From Mesorhizobium sp. C432A (GTDB taxonomy: Bacteria > Pseudomonadota > Alphaproteobacteria > Rhizobiales > Rhizobiaceae): 64,000 nt of DNA. A model generated the notes under the pieces. It worked only from the letters and a program-made list of their open reading frames with translations, had not been told where the DNA came from and did no database searches. The stretch spans positions 5,001,001-5,065,000 of the forward strand of contig NZ_CP100470.1 in assembly GCF_030323145.1 (NCBI RefSeq), given 5' to 3'. Positions 51,663 through 58,377 of this stretch are shown here, in pieces; position 1 is the first letter of the stretch, and each line of letters starts with the position of its first letter. A program made the translations under genes and the position numbers.

Positions 51663-51764
51663 GGGGCGCGTGGGCTGGCGGACCTAGAGGATCACCGCCA
51701 AACCGTCTGAGTTCAACTGGCGTTGGCGCTCTTCCGCAAAAGGAGGTCGTCTGAGCCGCGATCG

Positions 51765-52559
51765 TCACGGCTTTCCTTGAGGCGCAATGGGATTTGCGGT
51801 GGGGGGTGCAACAGCTGGCGCGGGCACTGCCGTGGTGCTCACAGCTGGCAACAGGCCATCACCGATTGCCTTGACGGCCGCGCCGACGATTGCGCCGCCG
51901 ATGACAGCCACAATTGCGAAATAAGTGAGAACGCGTGACTGTCGCTCCTTGATGTCGGCCACCTGTGTTCGCACCCCCTCGTTCTTGTCGCTCAACGCTT
52001 TCAACTCATCTTTCATTCGCTTTTCGAGTGCGTAGAGGGAGTCTACGACGCCAGTGATGTTGTTGATCATGCCGGGGGGAATACCGATCGGGCCTAGCTT
52101 GTCCTTGTGTTTAACCGATGGCGCATCAAGGTCGGCGATCCAAAGGAGGAATAGGGGCATTCCGCGCTGCAGATGAATTGTGGCCGGACCTGCGTTGAAA
52201 ACCGCAAAGATTAATGGGCCCGACCAGCCGGGATCGACGTGGAATCCCGATACATTTACGAGTCCCTTGGACTTGTATGTTGCTTTGATGGAGATGAACC
52301 CCATCACGTCAACAGGGATCGTGACCGTCTCCTCGGTCAGCAAGAATGCAAACTGGCCGGGCGGAATGGCGATCGGAGCGTTTTCCGATAAAATCTGCTT
52401 GGTGTGCGAATTGGGCGCCGGTTGTTCCAATCCAGGCGTGATATAGATTTCGCTACCGACGCGCATTGTGATGGCATTACAGTCAACCACATCGCGATGA
52501 TCATGGTCGACGAGCTTCATTAACCCAGATTCGAGCCGTTGACTGCTCCAAAATGCCAT
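51765..52559 (-). CDS. membrane-anchored dCTP-deaminase/dUTPase-fold protein lacking the catalytic Glu
   Basis: 264 residues. Residues about 1-155 have the dCTP deaminase/dUTPase trimer fold: PPGQFAFLLTEETVTIPVDV, then FHVDPGWSGPLIFAVFNAGP (106-125) and GMPLFLLWIADL. In real dCTP deaminases the strand after GWxG reads LEF/LEL with the catalytic Glu; here it is FAV. The Ser/Arg loop upstream reads KATYKSKGL. A predicted coiled coil (about 168-205), one membrane helix (VLTYFAIVAVIGGAIVGAAV) and a Pro/Ala-rich tail follow. Catalysis is unlikely; binding of a deoxynucleotide as a membrane sensor is my inference. It is divergent from the operon at 52838. Confidence 0.7.
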   Translation of the reverse strand: MAFWSSQRLESGLMKLVDHDHRDVVDCNAITMRVGSEIYITPGLEQPAPNSHTKQILSENAPIAIPPGQFAFLLTEETVTIPVDVMGFISIKATYKSKGLVNVSGFHVDPGWSGPLIFAVFNAGPATIHLQRGMPLFLLWIADLDAPSVKHKDKLGPIGIPPGMINNITGVVDSLYALEKRMKDELKALSDKNEGVRTQVADIKERQSRVLTYFAIVAVIGGAIVGAAVKAIGDGLLPAVSTTAVPAPAVAPPTANPIAPQGKP

Positions 52560-52787
52560 TCCCGTTGCTCCTCCCCGTCACGAATCGTTAGGGATATTCA
52601 AATCCTTTTTATCACTAGACGACTCGGATGCCACATGGGCATCCGTTAAATGCAAGCAGTGACTTGGCTGCTCCTCTGCTTCGCTTTGTCTCCACGCTAT
52701 CAATGTAAGTTGGGCACCTGAAGGCACGCCCTGTTCGGGAACCGTCGATAGCATTCGACTAGAAGTAGCAAAATACGCTTGTCTGAA

Positions 52788-52819
52788 AATCGAACATGCG
52801 CTACATATGATGTTCGATT
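52788..52819. promoter_or_regulatory. inverted-repeat operator in the divergent promoter region
   Basis: AATCGAACAT (52788-52797) and ATGTTCGATT (52810-52819), perfect 10-bp arms 12 bases apart, 19 bases before the first gene of the island operon. TTGTCT (52779-52784) and TACATA (52802-52807) with a 17-base spacer give a possible promoter covered by the repeat. It is the likely site of the XRE protein encoded two genes downstream. Confidence 0.6.
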
Positions 52820-52837
52820 ATAAGACGGAGCACTCAA

Positions 52838-53164
52838 ATGGACGTGCGCACGCGTTTCAAGCCGGACGTCGGCTTTCCCGATGAAGATGTTGAAGACCGT
52901 ATTCGTGAAGCAGTTCGCGACCAGATGGGTATTCAGTCGGTTCTGCGACCGAGAACACGTAGTGCATGTGAGCCTGAGATCGATTCGCTCGTCGTGATCG
53001 AAATCATTTGCTCGATCGAAGAGGTTCTGGGCATCAAACTGCCGACCACCTTCGCACCGAAAGGTGGCTACGATAGCGTTGAAGCTTGTGTCGGTGACCT
53101 TGTGGCTGAAACGCGCGCCGTCTGGAACGCCTCAGTTAGGGAAGAAGAACACCATGACCGATGA
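52838..53164 (+). CDS. acyl-carrier-protein-like small protein
   Basis: 108 residues. The middle reads EPEIDSLVVIEIICSIEEVL and IKLPTTF, then YDSVEACVGDLVAE. This has the shape of an acyl carrier protein: a DSL motif (Ser 50 as possible phosphopantetheine site), an acidic helix 2 and a short final helix. Whether it is modified is unknown. It begins the island operon and overlaps the XRE gene by 11 bases. An ACP-like partner beside nucleotide enzymes is unusual. It could instead be a small adaptor that only looks like ACP. Confidence 0.5.
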   Translation: MDVRTRFKPDVGFPDEDVEDRIREAVRDQMGIQSVLRPRTRSACEPEIDSLVVIEIICSIEEVLGIKLPTTFAPKGGYDSVEACVGDLVAETRAVWNASVREEEHHDR

Positions 53165-53531
53165 CCGCGCCGGATTTGCCTTGCCTCCTTCAGAGCCAGA
53201 TCGCATGGCTCTCGGCGAACGTCTGCGTTCAGCTCGGGAGTATGTGGGTCTTAAGCAGGACGACGTGGCCAAACATCTGGCGATCCCCCGCAGCGCACTC
53301 TCCCATATTGAGGCAGGTCAGCGAAAAGTTGACGCACTTGAGTTGTCGAGAATGGCGAAACTCTATCAGCGACCAGTTAGCTGGTTTACCGGGGAGGATG
53401 CTGTCGAAGTTCCTGAGGAAGTCGCTCATGTCGCCAGGGCAGCTGCAGCGCTGTCCACGCAAGATCGTCAGGAATTGGCGCGGTTCGCGGACTTCCTAAG
53501 GTCGCGCGCCAAAACAAAGGGCGGGCAGTGA
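53154..53531 (+). CDS. XRE-family (helix-turn-helix) regulator
   Basis: 125 residues from ATG 53154. The HTH_3 domain is LGERLRSAREYVGLKQDDVA, HLAIPRSALSHIEAGQRKVD, ALELSRMAKLYQRPVSWFTG (about 20-80). A C-terminal helix follows (ALSTQDRQELARFADFLRSR). XRE proteins paired with ImmA/IrrE proteases act as repressors that the protease destroys on induction. The gene overlaps the protease start by one base (TGATG). The inverted repeat at 52788-52819 is its probable operator. Confidence 0.88.
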   Translation: MTDDRAGFALPPSEPDRMALGERLRSAREYVGLKQDDVAKHLAIPRSALSHIEAGQRKVDALELSRMAKLYQRPVSWFTGEDAVEVPEEVAHVARAAAALSTQDRQELARFADFLRSRAKTKGGQ

Positions 53532-54541
53532 TGGTCGATGCGCGTAACTCGATCTTGACCGGAACGAAGGCTGCCAGCGAGCTTCACCGTGACCTCGGGA
53601 TTCGCAAACGTTTGGAGCGTAGCGGTGGCGGGAGAATTGACGTTTTTGGCGCGATCGGCCACCTCGGCGCGACCTTGATGTTTCAACCGTTGGACAAGCT
53701 GCTTGGTGCATACGTACCAGCAGATGAACCGGGTGTGCTGATCACGACAAAACGGCCGTTGCCCGTCCAGCGTTTCACCGGAGCGCATGAGCTTGGGCAT
53801 CTTTATATGCAGCATGAGCCGAGCTTCGACGACGAAAAAATTCTACGTCGTGCTCCGTTCGCCGTAAGCTCGCCTGCGGATGCACAAGAACAGCAGGCAG
53901 ACGCGTTCGCCGCCATATTTTTGGCCCCGTCCTGGCTACTTGCCATGATTGTTGCGAAACAGAAATGGTTGCCTCAAGCCCTGTCCGATCCTGCCACCGT
54001 TTACCAGCTATCTCTCCGTCTGGGCACAAGCTACAGCGCCACCTGCTATGTCTTGGAAAGGCATAAAGTCATTCGGCGAGATGAGCGCGAGAGGCTTCTT
54101 TCGCATCAGCCAAAGGACATAAAGCGTAGCCTGCTGACCGGCTATGAGCCACCGGACTGGAGATCTGACGTATGGCTGCTTACGAACCATGATGAAGGCA
54201 GCCTGATCGAAGGAGGACGCAATGACCTTTTCGTTGTGCGTCTTCGCGAAAACAGTGGCGCTGGTTATCTATGGGATTTTGATGCGTTAAAGTCAGCGGG
54301 CTTCGCAGTTGTGGCCGACGATCAAGAAGCAATCGATCCAGACCTCGTGGGCGGCCTCCTCACCCGGAAAGTGACGACCCGGTCCAACGATCGCAACCAA
54401 GGCGAAGTGACCCTGCAAGAGCGCAGGCCGTGGCTTCCAGGCAAGCCCCTCAACGAGCTTCACTTGCAATACGATCTAAGAGGACCGGAAGCGCCCGGCA
54501 TGTGGGAGCCTGACCTGCGACGCGTCCTCGAGGCGGCCTGA
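53531..54541 (+). CDS. ImmA/IrrE-type metallopeptidase with C-terminal chagasin-like domain
   Basis: 336 residues from ATG 53531. Residues about 15-210 are an ImmA/IrrE domain: FTGAHELGHLYM with HELGH (86-90) as zinc/catalytic site and the third ligand Glu120 in EQQADAFAAIFLAP. Residues about 225-336 match the I42/chagasin fold: FVVRLRENSGAGYLWDF (usual L-x-E-N-PTTGY-x-W), and near the end LQERRPWLPGKPLNELHLQY (usual RPWE loop and final strand). Chagasins inhibit papain-type proteases, and the next gene encodes one. I infer repressor cleavage by the N-terminal domain and control of the papain-like partner by the C-terminal domain. Confidence 0.8.
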   Translation: MVDARNSILTGTKAASELHRDLGIRKRLERSGGGRIDVFGAIGHLGATLMFQPLDKLLGAYVPADEPGVLITTKRPLPVQRFTGAHELGHLYMQHEPSFDDEKILRRAPFAVSSPADAQEQQADAFAAIFLAPSWLLAMIVAKQKWLPQALSDPATVYQLSLRLGTSYSATCYVLERHKVIRRDERERLLSHQPKDIKRSLLTGYEPPDWRSDVWLLTNHDEGSLIEGGRNDLFVVRLRENSGAGYLWDFDALKSAGFAVVADDQEAIDPDLVGGLLTRKVTTRSNDRNQGEVTLQERRPWLPGKPLNELHLQYDLRGPEAPGMWEPDLRRVLEAA

Positions 54542-54542
54542 C

Positions 54543-55190
54543 GTGATCACGATTATCAAGGATCTTCGCTCCAAATTTGGGCCAGCGAGGGATCAGGACC
54601 CGCGCCCTACATGCATGGCATTTGCCGCGAGCGACGCACACGCGGTGTCGCGCGGAGCCTGGGTGCCATTGTCCGTGGAATGGGCATACTTCCACGCATT
54701 GAAGAGAGAAGGCACCAGGCCGCACGTGGGCGTATACTTCGAAACCATGCTGGAAACTCTACGCGGCGATGGGCAGCCCGTTGAGGCACAATGGCCTTAT
54801 GACGCTTCAGAGTTCGTGGACTTTACAAATTGGCGGCCGCCAGCGGGTGCCAATCCAATCTTTCGGCAACAAGGTCAGAGGATTACGGCAACGGTTAGAA
54901 ACCTCATTGCGCAAATAGACCAAGGCCGACCCGTCCTGTTTACAATGAGTATTTCTCACGCCTTTTATCAGCCAGCCCCACACGGGATAATTTCTTCGAC
55001 AGAGGCCATGGAACCGAAGCGTGTTCATGCCTTGGTTGCGGTGGGTCACGGAACTGTTGGCAGCAAAAGCTATTTGCTTGTTCGCAACTCTTGGGGCGAG
55101 GCATGGGGTCTTGCTGGATACGCCTGGATCGACACGTCTTACCTCTCGCCGCGCCTGGTGGGTGCGGCCGTTATGGCAGGAGAAATTTGA
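54543..55190 (+). CDS. papain-like (C1) cysteine peptidase
   Basis: 215 residues from GTG 54543, one base after the previous stop. RDQDPRPTCMAFAASDAHAV holds the oxyanion Gln18 and nucleophile Cys24 at papain spacing. VHALVAVGHG gives catalytic His162, and SYLLVRNSWGEAWGLAGYAW gives Asn182 with the family's NSWG. There is no signal peptide and no propeptide, so it is a bare cytoplasmic catalytic domain that would need an inhibitor. The chagasin-like domain of the preceding gene fits that need. The target is unknown. In a conflict system it could be the effector. Confidence 0.85.
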   Translation: MITIIKDLRSKFGPARDQDPRPTCMAFAASDAHAVSRGAWVPLSVEWAYFHALKREGTRPHVGVYFETMLETLRGDGQPVEAQWPYDASEFVDFTNWRPPAGANPIFRQQGQRITATVRNLIAQIDQGRPVLFTMSISHAFYQPAPHGIISSTEAMEPKRVHALVAVGHGTVGSKSYLLVRNSWGEAWGLAGYAWIDTSYLSPRLVGAAVMAGEI

Positions 55191-55191
55191 A

Positions 55192-55986
55192 ATGTATCTT
55201 CCGATTGAGCCGCAACCTACGAATGTTAAAGCTTGGCTTGCTGCGGCAACGGCCGTGGAGAACCTAGGTGGCGAGGCTAACAACGTGGTCATCGACATTG
55301 CTGATCCTTTGCTCGAGGACGAGACCGACGCACAAATTATTCGTGTCGTCGACAGCTTCCTTCGGACCCATCACTGCAACGCTCTGAATGGGGTCGCCAA
55401 CACCATTTTTCCACAAAGCCTATTCGATCAGCATGGCCCGGATCAATTCTACCGCGCCTACCATGACCGCGTTTTTCCTCGAATGAAAACCATCACCCGC
55501 GACTGGGGACGATATTTCGAGCGACTGACCAGCTGGAAGAAGCTCGTCAACAATAAGGTAGAAGTGATCAATCCGCTGGACGATCTCGTAACGTTTATGC
55601 GCGGGCAGATCAGTTCAGACAAAAAGACATATCGAAATGCCTACGAGATGACCGTTTACGATCCTGGTCGAGACGCCGGGAAAGGATCCAATCGGCAGTG
55701 CCTAAGCTTCCTGAGTTTCAAACTGACGAACGACAATCGACTTTTGCTCACGGTAATGTATCGCAACCATGCCTACATCGCTCGTGGGCTTGGCAATTTC
55801 ATCGGACTTGGTCGGCTCCAAGCGTTTGTGGCCGGCCAAGCCGGCGCGCAAATGGGCTCGCTTACCTGTATCTCCACCCATGCGATGATCGACCACGGAA
55901 AATCTAGCAAGGGCGATCAGGGTCAAGGCTGGTCGCGCGCAGAAGCTATTGCTTTGCTCGAAGAGTGTCGAAGTTTAATGGGCTAA
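55192..55986 (+). CDS. thymidylate-synthase-like protein
   Basis: 264 residues from ATG 55192 (AGGAG upstream, one base after the previous stop). The C-terminal half follows the thymidylate synthase pattern: NRQCLSFLSFKL (Cys170 at the place of the catalytic PCH Cys), LTVMYRNHAYIARGLGNFIG (usual YQRSxDxxLGxPFNI) and QAGAQMGSLTCISTHAMI (usual AHIY end). WGRYFERLTSW lies in the N-terminal half. Many canonical residues differ (no SxD, no PFN). A hydroxymethylase-like or non-catalytic relative is more likely than ordinary thymidylate synthase. It ends overlapping the MazG-like gene by 4 bases, tail to tail. Confidence 0.65.
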   Translation: MYLPIEPQPTNVKAWLAAATAVENLGGEANNVVIDIADPLLEDETDAQIIRVVDSFLRTHHCNALNGVANTIFPQSLFDQHGPDQFYRAYHDRVFPRMKTITRDWGRYFERLTSWKKLVNNKVEVINPLDDLVTFMRGQISSDKKTYRNAYEMTVYDPGRDAGKGSNRQCLSFLSFKLTNDNRLLLTVMYRNHAYIARGLGNFIGLGRLQAFVAGQAGAQMGSLTCISTHAMIDHGKSSKGDQGQGWSRAEAIALLEECRSLMG

Positions 55987-57143
55987 TCCTTCATCCCGCA
56001 TGACTCTCTGTCTTCCGAAGTCATATCTTCAAACCAAATTTCACGCCGGTTCAAATCGGTTAGGACAACACCTATTCGCGCCGTCTGGAGTTGACGGAAC
56101 ACGGCGTAACCCTGAAGGATCGCCGACTCCCAGAGCCACATTGGCAGCTTCTCGGCTTCATAGCCCCGAACAAAGCGCTTCACGTCCTTCAAGATATCCA
56201 GCCCAAGCTTGGGCGTATTGGCGAAAAAGCGATGCTGCTTAGCGGTCTCGAAAATCCACGTCGTCAAACCTTCTTCGATCAAATTTGCTCGTGCACCGTC
56301 CTCGTTCTCGTCCAGGGCCTTTTGGCTCTTTCGTTTGATTTTTAGCAGCGCCCTTGTCGTCGGTGACCACCCAAGGACTGCCGCATAAGCAAGATGGAAT
56401 ACATCGTGGAAGCGGAAGTCATCTTCTGGGAGGTGATTGTCGGTCAGGCGATCGCCTAGTAGGAAACCGCCCGCTTTCTGAAACACAAATCGCGTCCCAT
56501 TGACCTCGCGCTCGTAAATCAGCACTCGCATCTGCCGCGGAAGCTGTTCGTCAATGTGTAGGCCTTCATCGAGAAGTGGCGGAAACACCCGTTGTGTTGG
56601 CCAACGATCTTCGGTCTTTACAACGTTCCGGATGGCGGCCTCGGTTAGTGTAACTTCCGCAGCTCGAGCGACTTCACCCAAAAGCCCAAGGATGTAGCTG
56701 AGATCATTGTGCAGGGCTGCTACATCAGTATCTTTGGTTTCCGCGCCCTTCCGCTTCGCCAGATGGCCCGTCCCGCCGGCAAGCCCAAGGAGGGCGGACT
56801 CAAGTGTCTCGGTTCGCTGCGTTGCTACCGCGTTGTCAAATGTCGCGAAATTAGGCCCGTGGTGCAATCCTCTGGTCAAATTGACGAGAGATGACCCACC
56901 TCGCCGTGCGACAGCAGAAAGGTACCAAAGGACATCGCCCAATTCTTCGACTACGGCGTCCCGGTAGCCAAAGAACCCATCGGTGTCACGACGCTTTTTC
57001 TTGACCGCGCTGACCAAACTCCCCACTTCACCAACCAGACCCAGGATTGAGGTCCCGATTTCCCCGAACTCCAGTTGATCGGTTCTTGCCGCATGGTCTT
57101 CGAATTGTGCGACAGACATGGAGGCATCGTTTGCGGCCGTCAT
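55983..57143 (-). CDS. MazG-like nucleotide pyrophosphohydrolase with extra C-terminal domain
   Basis: 386 residues from ATG 57143 (GTGGAAAG upstream). The N-terminal all-alpha domain has GLVGEVGSLVSAVKK and AVVEELGDVLWYLSAVARRG, the MazG pattern E-x2-E...E-E-x2-D with the second acidic position replaced by Ser42. A second helical part (LHNDLSYILGLLGEVARAAE) repeats the pattern weakly. Residues about 195-386 form a separate domain (FRFHDVFHLAYAAVLGWSPT, TWIFETAKQHRFF) that I cannot name. MazG enzymes cut (d)NTPs to monophosphates. In phage hypermodification pathways such enzymes help exclude normal nucleotides. It is divergent from the next gene. Confidence 0.7.
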   Translation of the reverse strand: MTAANDASMSVAQFEDHAARTDQLEFGEIGTSILGLVGEVGSLVSAVKKKRRDTDGFFGYRDAVVEELGDVLWYLSAVARRGGSSLVNLTRGLHHGPNFATFDNAVATQRTETLESALLGLAGGTGHLAKRKGAETKDTDVAALHNDLSYILGLLGEVARAAEVTLTEAAIRNVVKTEDRWPTQRVFPPLLDEGLHIDEQLPRQMRVLIYEREVNGTRFVFQKAGGFLLGDRLTDNHLPEDDFRFHDVFHLAYAAVLGWSPTTRALLKIKRKSQKALDENEDGARANLIEEGLTTWIFETAKQHRFFANTPKLGLDILKDVKRFVRGYEAEKLPMWLWESAILQGYAVFRQLQTARIGVVLTDLNRREIWFEDMTSEDRESCGMKD

Positions 57144-57272
57144 CTTTCCACACTCCATCTGCTGATTGTGCTGACTGGCAAGCCCAGACATCCTAGGATG
57201 CGCCCAAGAGAATCGATTTGGCCTTGGGAGCTGAACAATGCCCGTCTCGTTAACTGCGACTTTCGCGCGCAC

Positions 57273-58274
57273 ATGAACACCACCGTCGTTTTCGATACCT
57301 ACTGGAGATTCGCTGCCGAGCGGCTCTCAATGTTTTATCGCAGATTGGCTGATCCATGGGGCCCTTGGACAAACGATCCGATCCTCCGCGAATTTAGGTT
57401 CACTAACACCTATCGCGCGGCCGATCGTGTTAGCCAATATTTGATTAGCGAAGTGCAGTACAGGTCAGAGCGCTCGCAGGAGCCGAAAGAGGTTTTTTTC
57501 CGCACAATTCTCTTTAAAATCTTCAACAAGGTCGACACTTGGGAAGCACTGGAACGAGAATTTGGGCTGCTGACTTGGAAAGATTTCGATTTCGAAAGAG
57601 CCGATCAGTTGCTGAGTCGTCTCCATGCGAAAGGCAGGAAAATCTACTCCGCTGCCTACATCATGCCGCCCCCCCCATTTGGCAAAACCCGGAAACACAG
57701 CAATCATCTGGCGCTACTAAACTTGATGATGACTGACCGATTGCCAGACAGGCTGCGACAGGCACCCGACCTTCAAACCGTTTATGAAACAATTCTAGGC
57801 TATCCGGGCCTTGGCCGCTTTCTGGCATTCCAGTATGCGATCGACCTGAATTACTCCACTTTGCTCGATTTCGATGAAAGCGAATTCGTTGTCGCTGGGC
57901 CTGGCGCGCTTGACGGCATATCTAAGTGTTTCAAGTCGACCGATGGCCAGTCAGCGGAGGAAATCATCAACTGGGTCACCGAACGGCAATCTGACGAGTT
58001 TGCAAGTCGAGGCATAGATTTCGCAGGTCTATTCGGACGACGGCTGCAGCCTATAGATTGTCAGAACCTTTTTTGTGAAATCTCGAAATACTCCAGAGTG
58101 GCACACCCGGATGTACAGGGTATCGCCGATCGCAAAAGAATAAAGCAGAGCTATCGTCGCACAGCTTTGAAGCTGCCTCAACCAAGGTTCCCACCGCGTT
58201 GGGGTGTCTCTACCAATCCTGCAGATGTCATAGTTAATAAGATCAGGTCAGAGGAACAACTTGAACTGCTCTAG
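57273..58274 (+). CDS. 5-hmdU DNA kinase helical-domain-like (putative base hypermodification) protein
   Basis: 333 residues from ATG 57273. FRFTNTYRAADRVSQYLISE (41-60), FFRTILFKIFNKVDTWEALE and, later, FLAFQYAIDLNYSTLLDFDE and EFVVAGPGALDGISKCF are stretches I associate with the helical domain of 5-hydroxymethyl-dU DNA kinases (also described as alpha-glutamyl/putrescinyl thymine pyrophosphorylase). These are phage enzymes that act on modified thymine in DNA. There is no P-loop, so only the helical module is present. Its place beside thymidylate-synthase-like and MazG-like genes supports a link to modified pyrimidines. The assignment is from memory of the family. Confidence 0.65.
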   Translation: MNTTVVFDTYWRFAAERLSMFYRRLADPWGPWTNDPILREFRFTNTYRAADRVSQYLISEVQYRSERSQEPKEVFFRTILFKIFNKVDTWEALEREFGLLTWKDFDFERADQLLSRLHAKGRKIYSAAYIMPPPPFGKTRKHSNHLALLNLMMTDRLPDRLRQAPDLQTVYETILGYPGLGRFLAFQYAIDLNYSTLLDFDESEFVVAGPGALDGISKCFKSTDGQSAEEIINWVTERQSDEFASRGIDFAGLFGRRLQPIDCQNLFCEISKYSRVAHPDVQGIADRKRIKQSYRRTALKLPQPRFPPRWGVSTNPADVIVNKIRSEEQLELL

Positions 58275-58377
58275 TCTTTTCGGTTGAGGCGCGAAGCGGC
58301 CATTCACGGACGCAGGAGACAAAGTCGCCTTTAAGAGCAGCCAGCCTTCGCAGGATCAGCCTTCCCCCAAGACAAAC

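Follow-up and report, generated by a model that had tools for sequence, protein, structure and literature searches.

A candidate conflict system built around a thymidylate-synthase-like protein and a predicted uracil-directed glycosylase-type protein in Mesorhizobium sp. C432A

What brings relatives of pyrimidine nucleotide enzymes together with an acyl carrier protein (ACP), a repressor and two proteases in one small block of bacterial DNA? The question is raised by eight genes at positions 51765-58274 of a 64,000-nucleotide stretch of Mesorhizobium sp. C432A (G000:C1:5001001-5065000 of the 6.02-Mb genome; hereafter, the window). An earlier note on this DNA had proposed that they form a new conflict system joining modified-nucleotide enzymes with a protease and its inhibitor. 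Our best explanation is that the block is a member of a conserved, horizontally transferred and inducible conflict system acting on uracil-type nucleotides or DNA, most likely a defence against phages or other invading DNA, and we tentatively give this reading a probability of about 0.45. Its predicted core consists of an ACP, an XRE-family repressor, an ImmA-type protease and a thymidylate-synthase (TS)-like protein, usually with a MazG/MazG_C protein, plus one uracil-directed glycosylase-type protein, either HMUDK_hel or a uracil-DNA glycosylase (UDG).

All eight open reading frames (ORFs) are present, in the order dCTP-deaminase (DCD)-fold protein with a probable transmembrane segment (minus strand), ACP, XRE, ImmA-chagasin, papain-like C1 protease and TS-like protein (all plus), MazG-MazG_C (minus) and HMUDK_hel (plus). 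The block is also lower in G+C, as had been claimed: its genes range from 0.50 to 0.585, and 1-kb windows give ~0.52-0.57 within it versus ~0.60-0.68 in the flanks. The near-gapless packing described earlier holds from ACP to MazG, where adjacent genes share 4 or 11 bases or are 1 base apart and the minus-strand MazG gene overlaps the end of the TS-like gene by 4 bases. It does not extend to the divergent gene pairs DCD/ACP and MazG/HMUDK_hel, which are separated by 278 and 129 bases, respectively, and the gene orientations imply at least four transcription units. Seven of the eight proteins pass curated family cut-offs (the ACP barely); the TS-like protein falls below its own. DNA similarity to a congener (G1008) ends at window position 51664 and restarts at 58375/58426, and G1008 carries unrelated genes between the same two flanks, which identifies the block as an insert at a variable site. 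By eye, those genes (L101:2030-10490) are adenylate-cyclase-like, MFS, FAD-oxidase-like and LysR-type genes, and the site also holds a second partial copy of the 3' end of the left flank gene, which together with the different cargo suggests repeated insertion. No integrase was found among the eight block genes.

Is the block a chance cluster or a system? We recruited loci with the TS-like protein from genomes and plasmids, giving 33 loci with the window, and annotated them with purpose-built profiles. The TS-like gene was present in 22 plasmid records, and regions of 17 were used; records H8-H11 were omitted because their match figures were identical to those of H7, and H6 is the same record as L023. 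XRE and ImmA genes adjoin the TS-like gene in 30 of the 33 loci (window counted), which rules out a chance cluster and supplies the conserved neighbourhood that the earlier note had suggested seeking in other genomes. The remaining parts are ACP (29 loci), MazG (25), papain (21), DCD-like (10), AcpS-like (8) and Sfp-like (2) genes. The three loci lacking both XRE and ImmA are L025, L076 (a TS fragment) and L112 (a partial TS match in an unannotated record), and absences in L031 and L074 mean little because both lie at contig ends. Seven of the eight window genes occur together in L009, and all eight slots are filled, with UDG replacing HMUDK_hel, in L023, L024, L056 and L108; the exact eight-gene set was found only in the window.

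Hosts span Alpha- and Betaproteobacteria, Actinomycetota, Cyanobacteriota and Haloarchaea, with the system on chromosomes and often on plasmids; plasmid-record hosts include Rhizobiales, Sphingomonadales, Rhodobacterales, Burkholderia, Streptomyces, Nostoc, Allocoleopsis and Haloarcula. Few genomes have the TS-like gene (8 of 297 in the order and 7 of 385 in the class, with its own genome counted in each), 13 of the 22 plasmid records are typed conjugative, and three IMG/VR contigs called viral (L037-L039, recruited by HMUDK_hel) carry the operon. From sequence comparison, a recurring, horizontally moving multi-gene system is supported. One locus has a shorter form: L025 (8785-11365) encodes a DCD-fold protein, a TS-like protein and a UDG-like protein with a GEAPG motif and an additional C-terminal part, and gave no XRE, ImmA or ACP match. 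This variant is perhaps the minimal enzymatic core.

What would such a system act on? The HMUDK_hel protein (333 aa; 57273..58274, plus strand; PF18723, 6.5e-109) had been described in the earlier note as like the helical domain of a 5-hydroxymethyldeoxyuridine (5-hmdU) DNA kinase and counted with the 5-hmdU kinase-type family. It is the helical part alone: the window block has no PF18748 or thymidylate-kinase match, no kinase family matched the protein itself, and in phage M6 the kinase is a separate gene, so a kinase reading was rejected for the window. Nothing credible was found among solved structures by sequence; the predicted structure is similar to those of helix-hairpin-helix (HhH) DNA glycosylases, a superfamily to which the protein may belong, and to that of a phage DNA glycinyltransferase. 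Each of the 30 operons encodes exactly one glycosylase-type protein, HMUDK_hel in 15 and UDG in 15, and the presence of UDG in the HMUDK_hel slot of half of them points to uracil or modified uracil in DNA, not to kinase chemistry. Among 21 loci recruited with HMUDK_hel, four have the operon and none of those four has UDG. The swap takes 2-3 changes on the TS tree, with starred branches forcing only 1, and the Asp and His motif columns of UDG, to which we assign the residue roles usual for the motif, are invariant in six aligned sequences. We know of no tested activity for the HMUDK_hel family; the alternation offers a functional handle on it and predicts a uracil-type base in DNA as its substrate.

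HMUDK_hel was also seen in other company. Two of its settings are defence-like: in Sinorhizobium chiapasense (L062:1253-9053) it lies with TIR genes, a TS and a methyltransferase, and in Parabacteroides (L064:6835-9925) with TIR and radical SAM genes. On plasmids of Erythrobacter and Sphingosinicella (L050, L060) it is flanked by dnaQ/exonuclease-like and dnaE genes, and a SAM methyltransferase gene lies close by.

The TS-like protein (55192..55986, plus strand) would be the pyrimidine C5 enzyme of the system. It matches TIGR03283 at 6.9e-11, far below the curated cut-off, and has no Pfam match, including none to PF00303. The single sequence has no match among solved structures, and the family profile matches solved TS structures weakly. 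In 17 aligned members, Cys170 and Asn202 are invariant (17/17) and align with the TS Cys and Asn, which we take to be the nucleophile and the dUMP-recognising residue, respectively. By eye, an Arg that is presumably phosphate-binding is retained in 12 of the 17 (Ala in 5), and an Asp that we take to be folate-binding is retained in only 3 and absent from 14. With neither PF00303 nor, in most members, this Asp, the protein is not a canonical folate-dependent thymidylate synthase. Its nearest relative, at 77% identity, is in a Mesorhizobium metagenome-assembled genome, and of 877 protein-database matches to the family at E <=1e-3, 120 are listed. Neither the 50,697 phage records nor PHROGs contain a match to the family (both at E 1e-3), and a single-sequence scan of IMG/VR gave no confirmed relative; the protein was accordingly rejected as a phage gene, yet the contigs called viral, L037-L039, hold the operon. 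On two Rhizobium ruizarguesonis plasmids (L049:8637-9471, L109:6001-6760; n=2), the annotation splits the TS-like gene into two ORFs.

The main rival to a conflict system is element-borne hypermodification, in which the operon, induced on transfer, would place modified thymine or uracil in the element's own plasmid or island DNA to evade host restriction, much as TS and HMUDK_hel genes probably do in phages. HMUDK_hel matches 484 of the 50,697 phage records. In phage M6, it adjoins a P-loop 5-hmdU kinase (gp54), and genes for an amino-acid:DNA transferase and an annotated TS are close by; in Kuttervirus heyday, the gene before it is annotated as a pyrophosphohydrolase and has no Pfam match at 0.01. 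Passages of PMC11946847 report that relatives of M6 hypermodify thymidine. Within our own collection, HMUDK_hel carries a fused thymidylate-kinase domain in two loci (L026:7855-9612, L039:9269-10963) and has a tmk gene beside it in a third (L059:2594-4228), and the conjugative typing of plasmid records and the presence of the operon on contigs called viral fit this rival as well. The kinship with phage thymine hypermodification claimed earlier is thus real for HMUDK_hel, which the block has in common with M6, and fails for the TS-like family: the block uses a different TS, and the lack of any match in the phage collection indicates that it is not a phage hypermodification enzyme. Moreover, UDG, whose fold is an excising one and whose motif residues are intact, can substitute for HMUDK_hel; the eight block proteins include no P-loop hmdU kinase and no amino-acid:DNA transferase (PF18724) match; and the added regulator, ACP, ImmA-chagasin and papain genes would go unexplained. 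We consider this rival unlikely.

Two further parts of the core concern carriers and nucleotides. The ACP-like protein (108 aa; 52838..53164, plus strand; PF00550, 4.3e-4, 20.9 bits against a cut-off of 20.8) has an intact Asp-Ser attachment motif (DSL), which was found by eye in 24 of the 24 sequences listed; an automated motif pattern chose the wrong site in some of them. An AcpS or Sfp-type gene lies <=7 kb from the TS-like gene in 10 of the 33 loci, and the motif and these genes together make it very likely that the ACP is phosphopantetheinylated. An ACP with its own phosphopantetheinyl transferase (PPTase) beside a TS relative is an oddity open to direct test. The MazG-type protein (55983..57143, minus strand; MazG 9e-6, MazG_C 3e-71) is fused to MazG_C and has two helical MazG-like units in the model, the MazG part of which resembles dimeric dUTPases; fold matches barely cover MazG_C.

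These parts invite a second rival, that ACP, PPTase and TS-like protein together make a signal or antibiotic from a nucleotide, which would be released under stress, the protease being its effector or a part conferring immunity. The attachment Ser and the nearby AcpS or Sfp-type genes are in its favour, and the absence of the presumed folate-binding Asp from most TS-like proteins means that the usual one-carbon donor may be unused. Against it, no recurring ketosynthase, adenylation or export gene was seen in the annotated plasmid neighbourhoods, and none of the 30 operons lacks a glycosylase-type protein; a small-molecule system is, in our judgement, rather improbable.

How would the system be controlled? 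The XRE-family repressor (125 aa; 53154..53531, plus strand; HTH_31, 5.6e-12) is CapH-like (PADLOC capH, 3.1e-12). The next gene (53528..54541, plus strand) encodes an ImmA/IrrE metalloprotease with an HELGH motif (PF06114, Peptidase_M78, 2e-7; PADLOC capP, 1.1e-13) fused to a chagasin-family domain (PF09394, Inhibitor_I42, 5e-7), and HExxH, as HELGH or HEIGH, is present in 30 of 30 ImmA proteins. A putative XRE operator, TGTCTGA-AAA-TCGAACA, lies at 52780..52796 (plus strand), 41 bases before the ACP start, with one mismatch to the consensus TGTCNGA-N3-TCNGACA derived from eight loci. It is overlapped by an inverted repeat (52788..52819) with 10-base arms, AATCGAACAT and ATGTTCGATT, an arm length reached by none of 60 mononucleotide shuffles. 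The palindrome sits 12-92 bases ahead of the ACP gene (with some start codons chosen by us). Of 28 loci, 14 have it with <=1 mismatch and 19 with <=2, against resampled means of 0.01 and 0.10, respectively. With the eight source loci and the window set aside, these figures are 5 and 10 of 19; in four later loci they are 3 and 4, and L009 has a perfect copy. The operator is the only site with <2 mismatches in the window, where three more have 2; as these 4 sites with <=2 mismatches do not exceed chance (2.11 expected), the evidence for an operator is its position and conservation. By eye, five papain-less operons (L026, L028, L029, L052, L058) have a related GTAAGA-N3-TCTTAC.

The next gene encodes a papain-like C1 cysteine protease (54543..55190, plus strand; PF00112, 1.1e-13, and motifs) with Gln, Cys, His and Asn in place. 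All 20 sequences have the Gln-Cys and Asn motifs, and the His-Ala segment is readable in those listed; a His pattern search missed one sequence and hit the wrong site in others. The protease-inhibitor pairing proposed in the earlier note is borne out: I42 is found in 16 of 17 ImmA proteins from papain-carrying operons versus 0 of 10 from operons without papain (Fisher p 1.3e-6; L073-L075 and L108-L111 left out of the test), a split that counts once and not ten times because the ten papain-less operons form a single clade. For the same reason, repeated co-loss of chagasin and papain was rejected as unsupported. In L108 and L109, ImmA is annotated 'protease inhibitor I42 family protein', and segments that we take to resemble three chagasin loops are visible in the window protein. 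As papain is present in only 21 of the 33 loci, proteolysis is not the core output.

An inhibitor fused beside its protease, an operator with a repressor and carriage on plasmids could also describe a toxin-antitoxin or plasmid-maintenance module, with papain or the glycosylase as toxin and ImmA-chagasin/XRE as antitoxin. The papain gene is absent from a whole clade, however, and the block has more enzymatic parts than a usual addiction module, which makes this quite improbable. A more daring scheme, in which the thiol of the holo-ACP traps or carries a C5-activated pyrimidine from a folate-independent TS relative, the conjugate being a toxin, a source of DNA lesions or an alarm that ImmA-chagasin senses to uncage papain, strikes us as a long shot. 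To our knowledge, such TS/ACP chemistry and a chagasin-caged protease would each be a first in prokaryotic immunity. Finally, although several parts are related to dU-nucleotide enzymes, housekeeping control of dUTP/dUMP pools acquired by chance is very hard to credit given that the host has a separate canonical thymidylate synthase (G000:C1:3337548) and the TS-like gene is rare and in a variable site.

Under the preferred reading of an inducible conflict system, XRE would bind the palindrome before the ACP gene and hold the operon off, as the conservation of the site suggests. Infection or incoming single-stranded DNA might then activate ImmA to cleave XRE, by analogy with CapP acting on CapH. 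MazG may yield or bind dUMP-type nucleotides, and the TS-like enzyme would activate the pyrimidine C5, for which the ACP might supply its phosphopantetheine arm as carrier or thiol. The HhH or UDG protein would act on a uracil-type base in DNA, and base removal or a crippling modification could spoil the invader's DNA; these enzymatic steps are suggested by the invariant Cys and Asn, the fold similarity and the strict interchange with UDG. In the papain subtype, the observed pairing suggests that the chagasin half of ImmA holds the C1 protease in an inactive state for as long as ImmA is not engaged, and release of the protease may add a proteolytic, probably growth-stopping, arm.

Some neighbours of the operon are of defence type. 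A gene annotated as a Shedu nuclease adjoins it in L108 (1750-2910), caspase-family genes lie near it in L049, L053, L054 and L109, PADLOC matches among picked neighbours are AbiEii, a PD-T4-6-type kinase and caspase, and RES/Xre and nucleotidyltransferase-HEPN genes are annotated beside some operons. Seven of the ten picked neighbour genes have no PADLOC match, and the window contains no defence-type neighbours. If it is a defence system, a single repressor/protease switch would govern pyrimidine C5 chemistry, a protein of DNA-glycosylase type and a protease caged by its inhibitor, bringing to prokaryotic immunity new chemistry and a new way to restrain a protease effector, on bacterial and archaeal plasmids.

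How does the block compare with known systems? As in CapH/CapP of CBASS, ImmR/ImmA and DdrO/IrrE, an XRE repressor stands beside an ImmA-like HExxH protease with a palindromic operator upstream, and passages of PMC10233336 describe cleavage of the CapH repressor by the metallopeptidase, stimulated by single-stranded DNA. Unlike CapH/CapP-CBASS, the eight block proteins have no CD-NTase match (Pfam or PADLOC), an ACP gene precedes XRE, and the ImmA of the papain subtype has a chagasin domain. The block also resembles chagasin (I42)/papain (C1) pairs in having an I42 domain on ImmA next to a C1 protease whose catalytic residues are intact; here, in contrast, the inhibitor is fused to an ImmA-type regulatory metalloprotease inside a nucleotide-enzyme operon. 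Phage hypermodification clusters (M6, ViI-like) share HMUDK_hel, with a TS-annotated (M6) or pyrophosphohydrolase-annotated (Kuttervirus) gene close by. In text and legend passages of DefensePredictor (PMC13092281, Science 2026), MazG, MazG-C and aGPT-Pplase are predicted, unvalidated defence domains, dUTPase is another predicted one, thymidylate synthase and 5-hydroxymethyluracil kinase are among the newly validated ones, and UDG appears in a figure legend; those text and legend passages contain no ACP-XRE-ImmA-papain-TS set. Pfam already names HMUDK_hel and MazG_C, so those domains were described earlier. The novelty of the system as a whole depends on our having found no description of the gene set in the parts of the open-licence PMC literature that were covered.

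The DCD-fold protein (264 aa; 51765..52559, minus strand; PF22769, 9.8e-13) is encoded divergently from the ACP operon and has a C-terminal hydrophobic, probably transmembrane, segment at residue 214 (KD19 2.28), which recurs in DCD-fold proteins (best KD19 1.45-2.89). The dCTP-deaminase fold named in the earlier note holds, and the active site departs from that of the enzyme: an Ala aligns with the Glu of Dcd chain 1xs1, which we take to be the wild-type catalytic residue, and all ten TS-linked DCD-fold proteins have Ala or Ser at this position (nine aligned plus L108; L045 and L063, DCD-like proteins in other contexts, are excluded). We therefore judge an active dCTP deaminase unlikely. The dCTP deaminase anti-phage proteins reportedly described by Tal et al. 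in 2022 are alike in fold, and the TS-linked proteins differ from them in the missing Glu and in the membrane anchor. The simplest reading is that this membrane protein is a sensor that probably binds dUTP/dCTP-type nucleotides without deaminating them.

Beside some UDG-type operons lies a gene annotated as a metallophosphoesterase (L054:10885-14140, L109:8887-12051, L047:11825-14008). In L047 its C-terminal part is weakly TS-like; in L054 and L109 it is followed by a separate gene annotated as a thymidylate synthase (of the two, only that of L054 was tested for a PF00303 match). The metallophosphoesterase and thymidylate synthase genes are possibly an accessory module.

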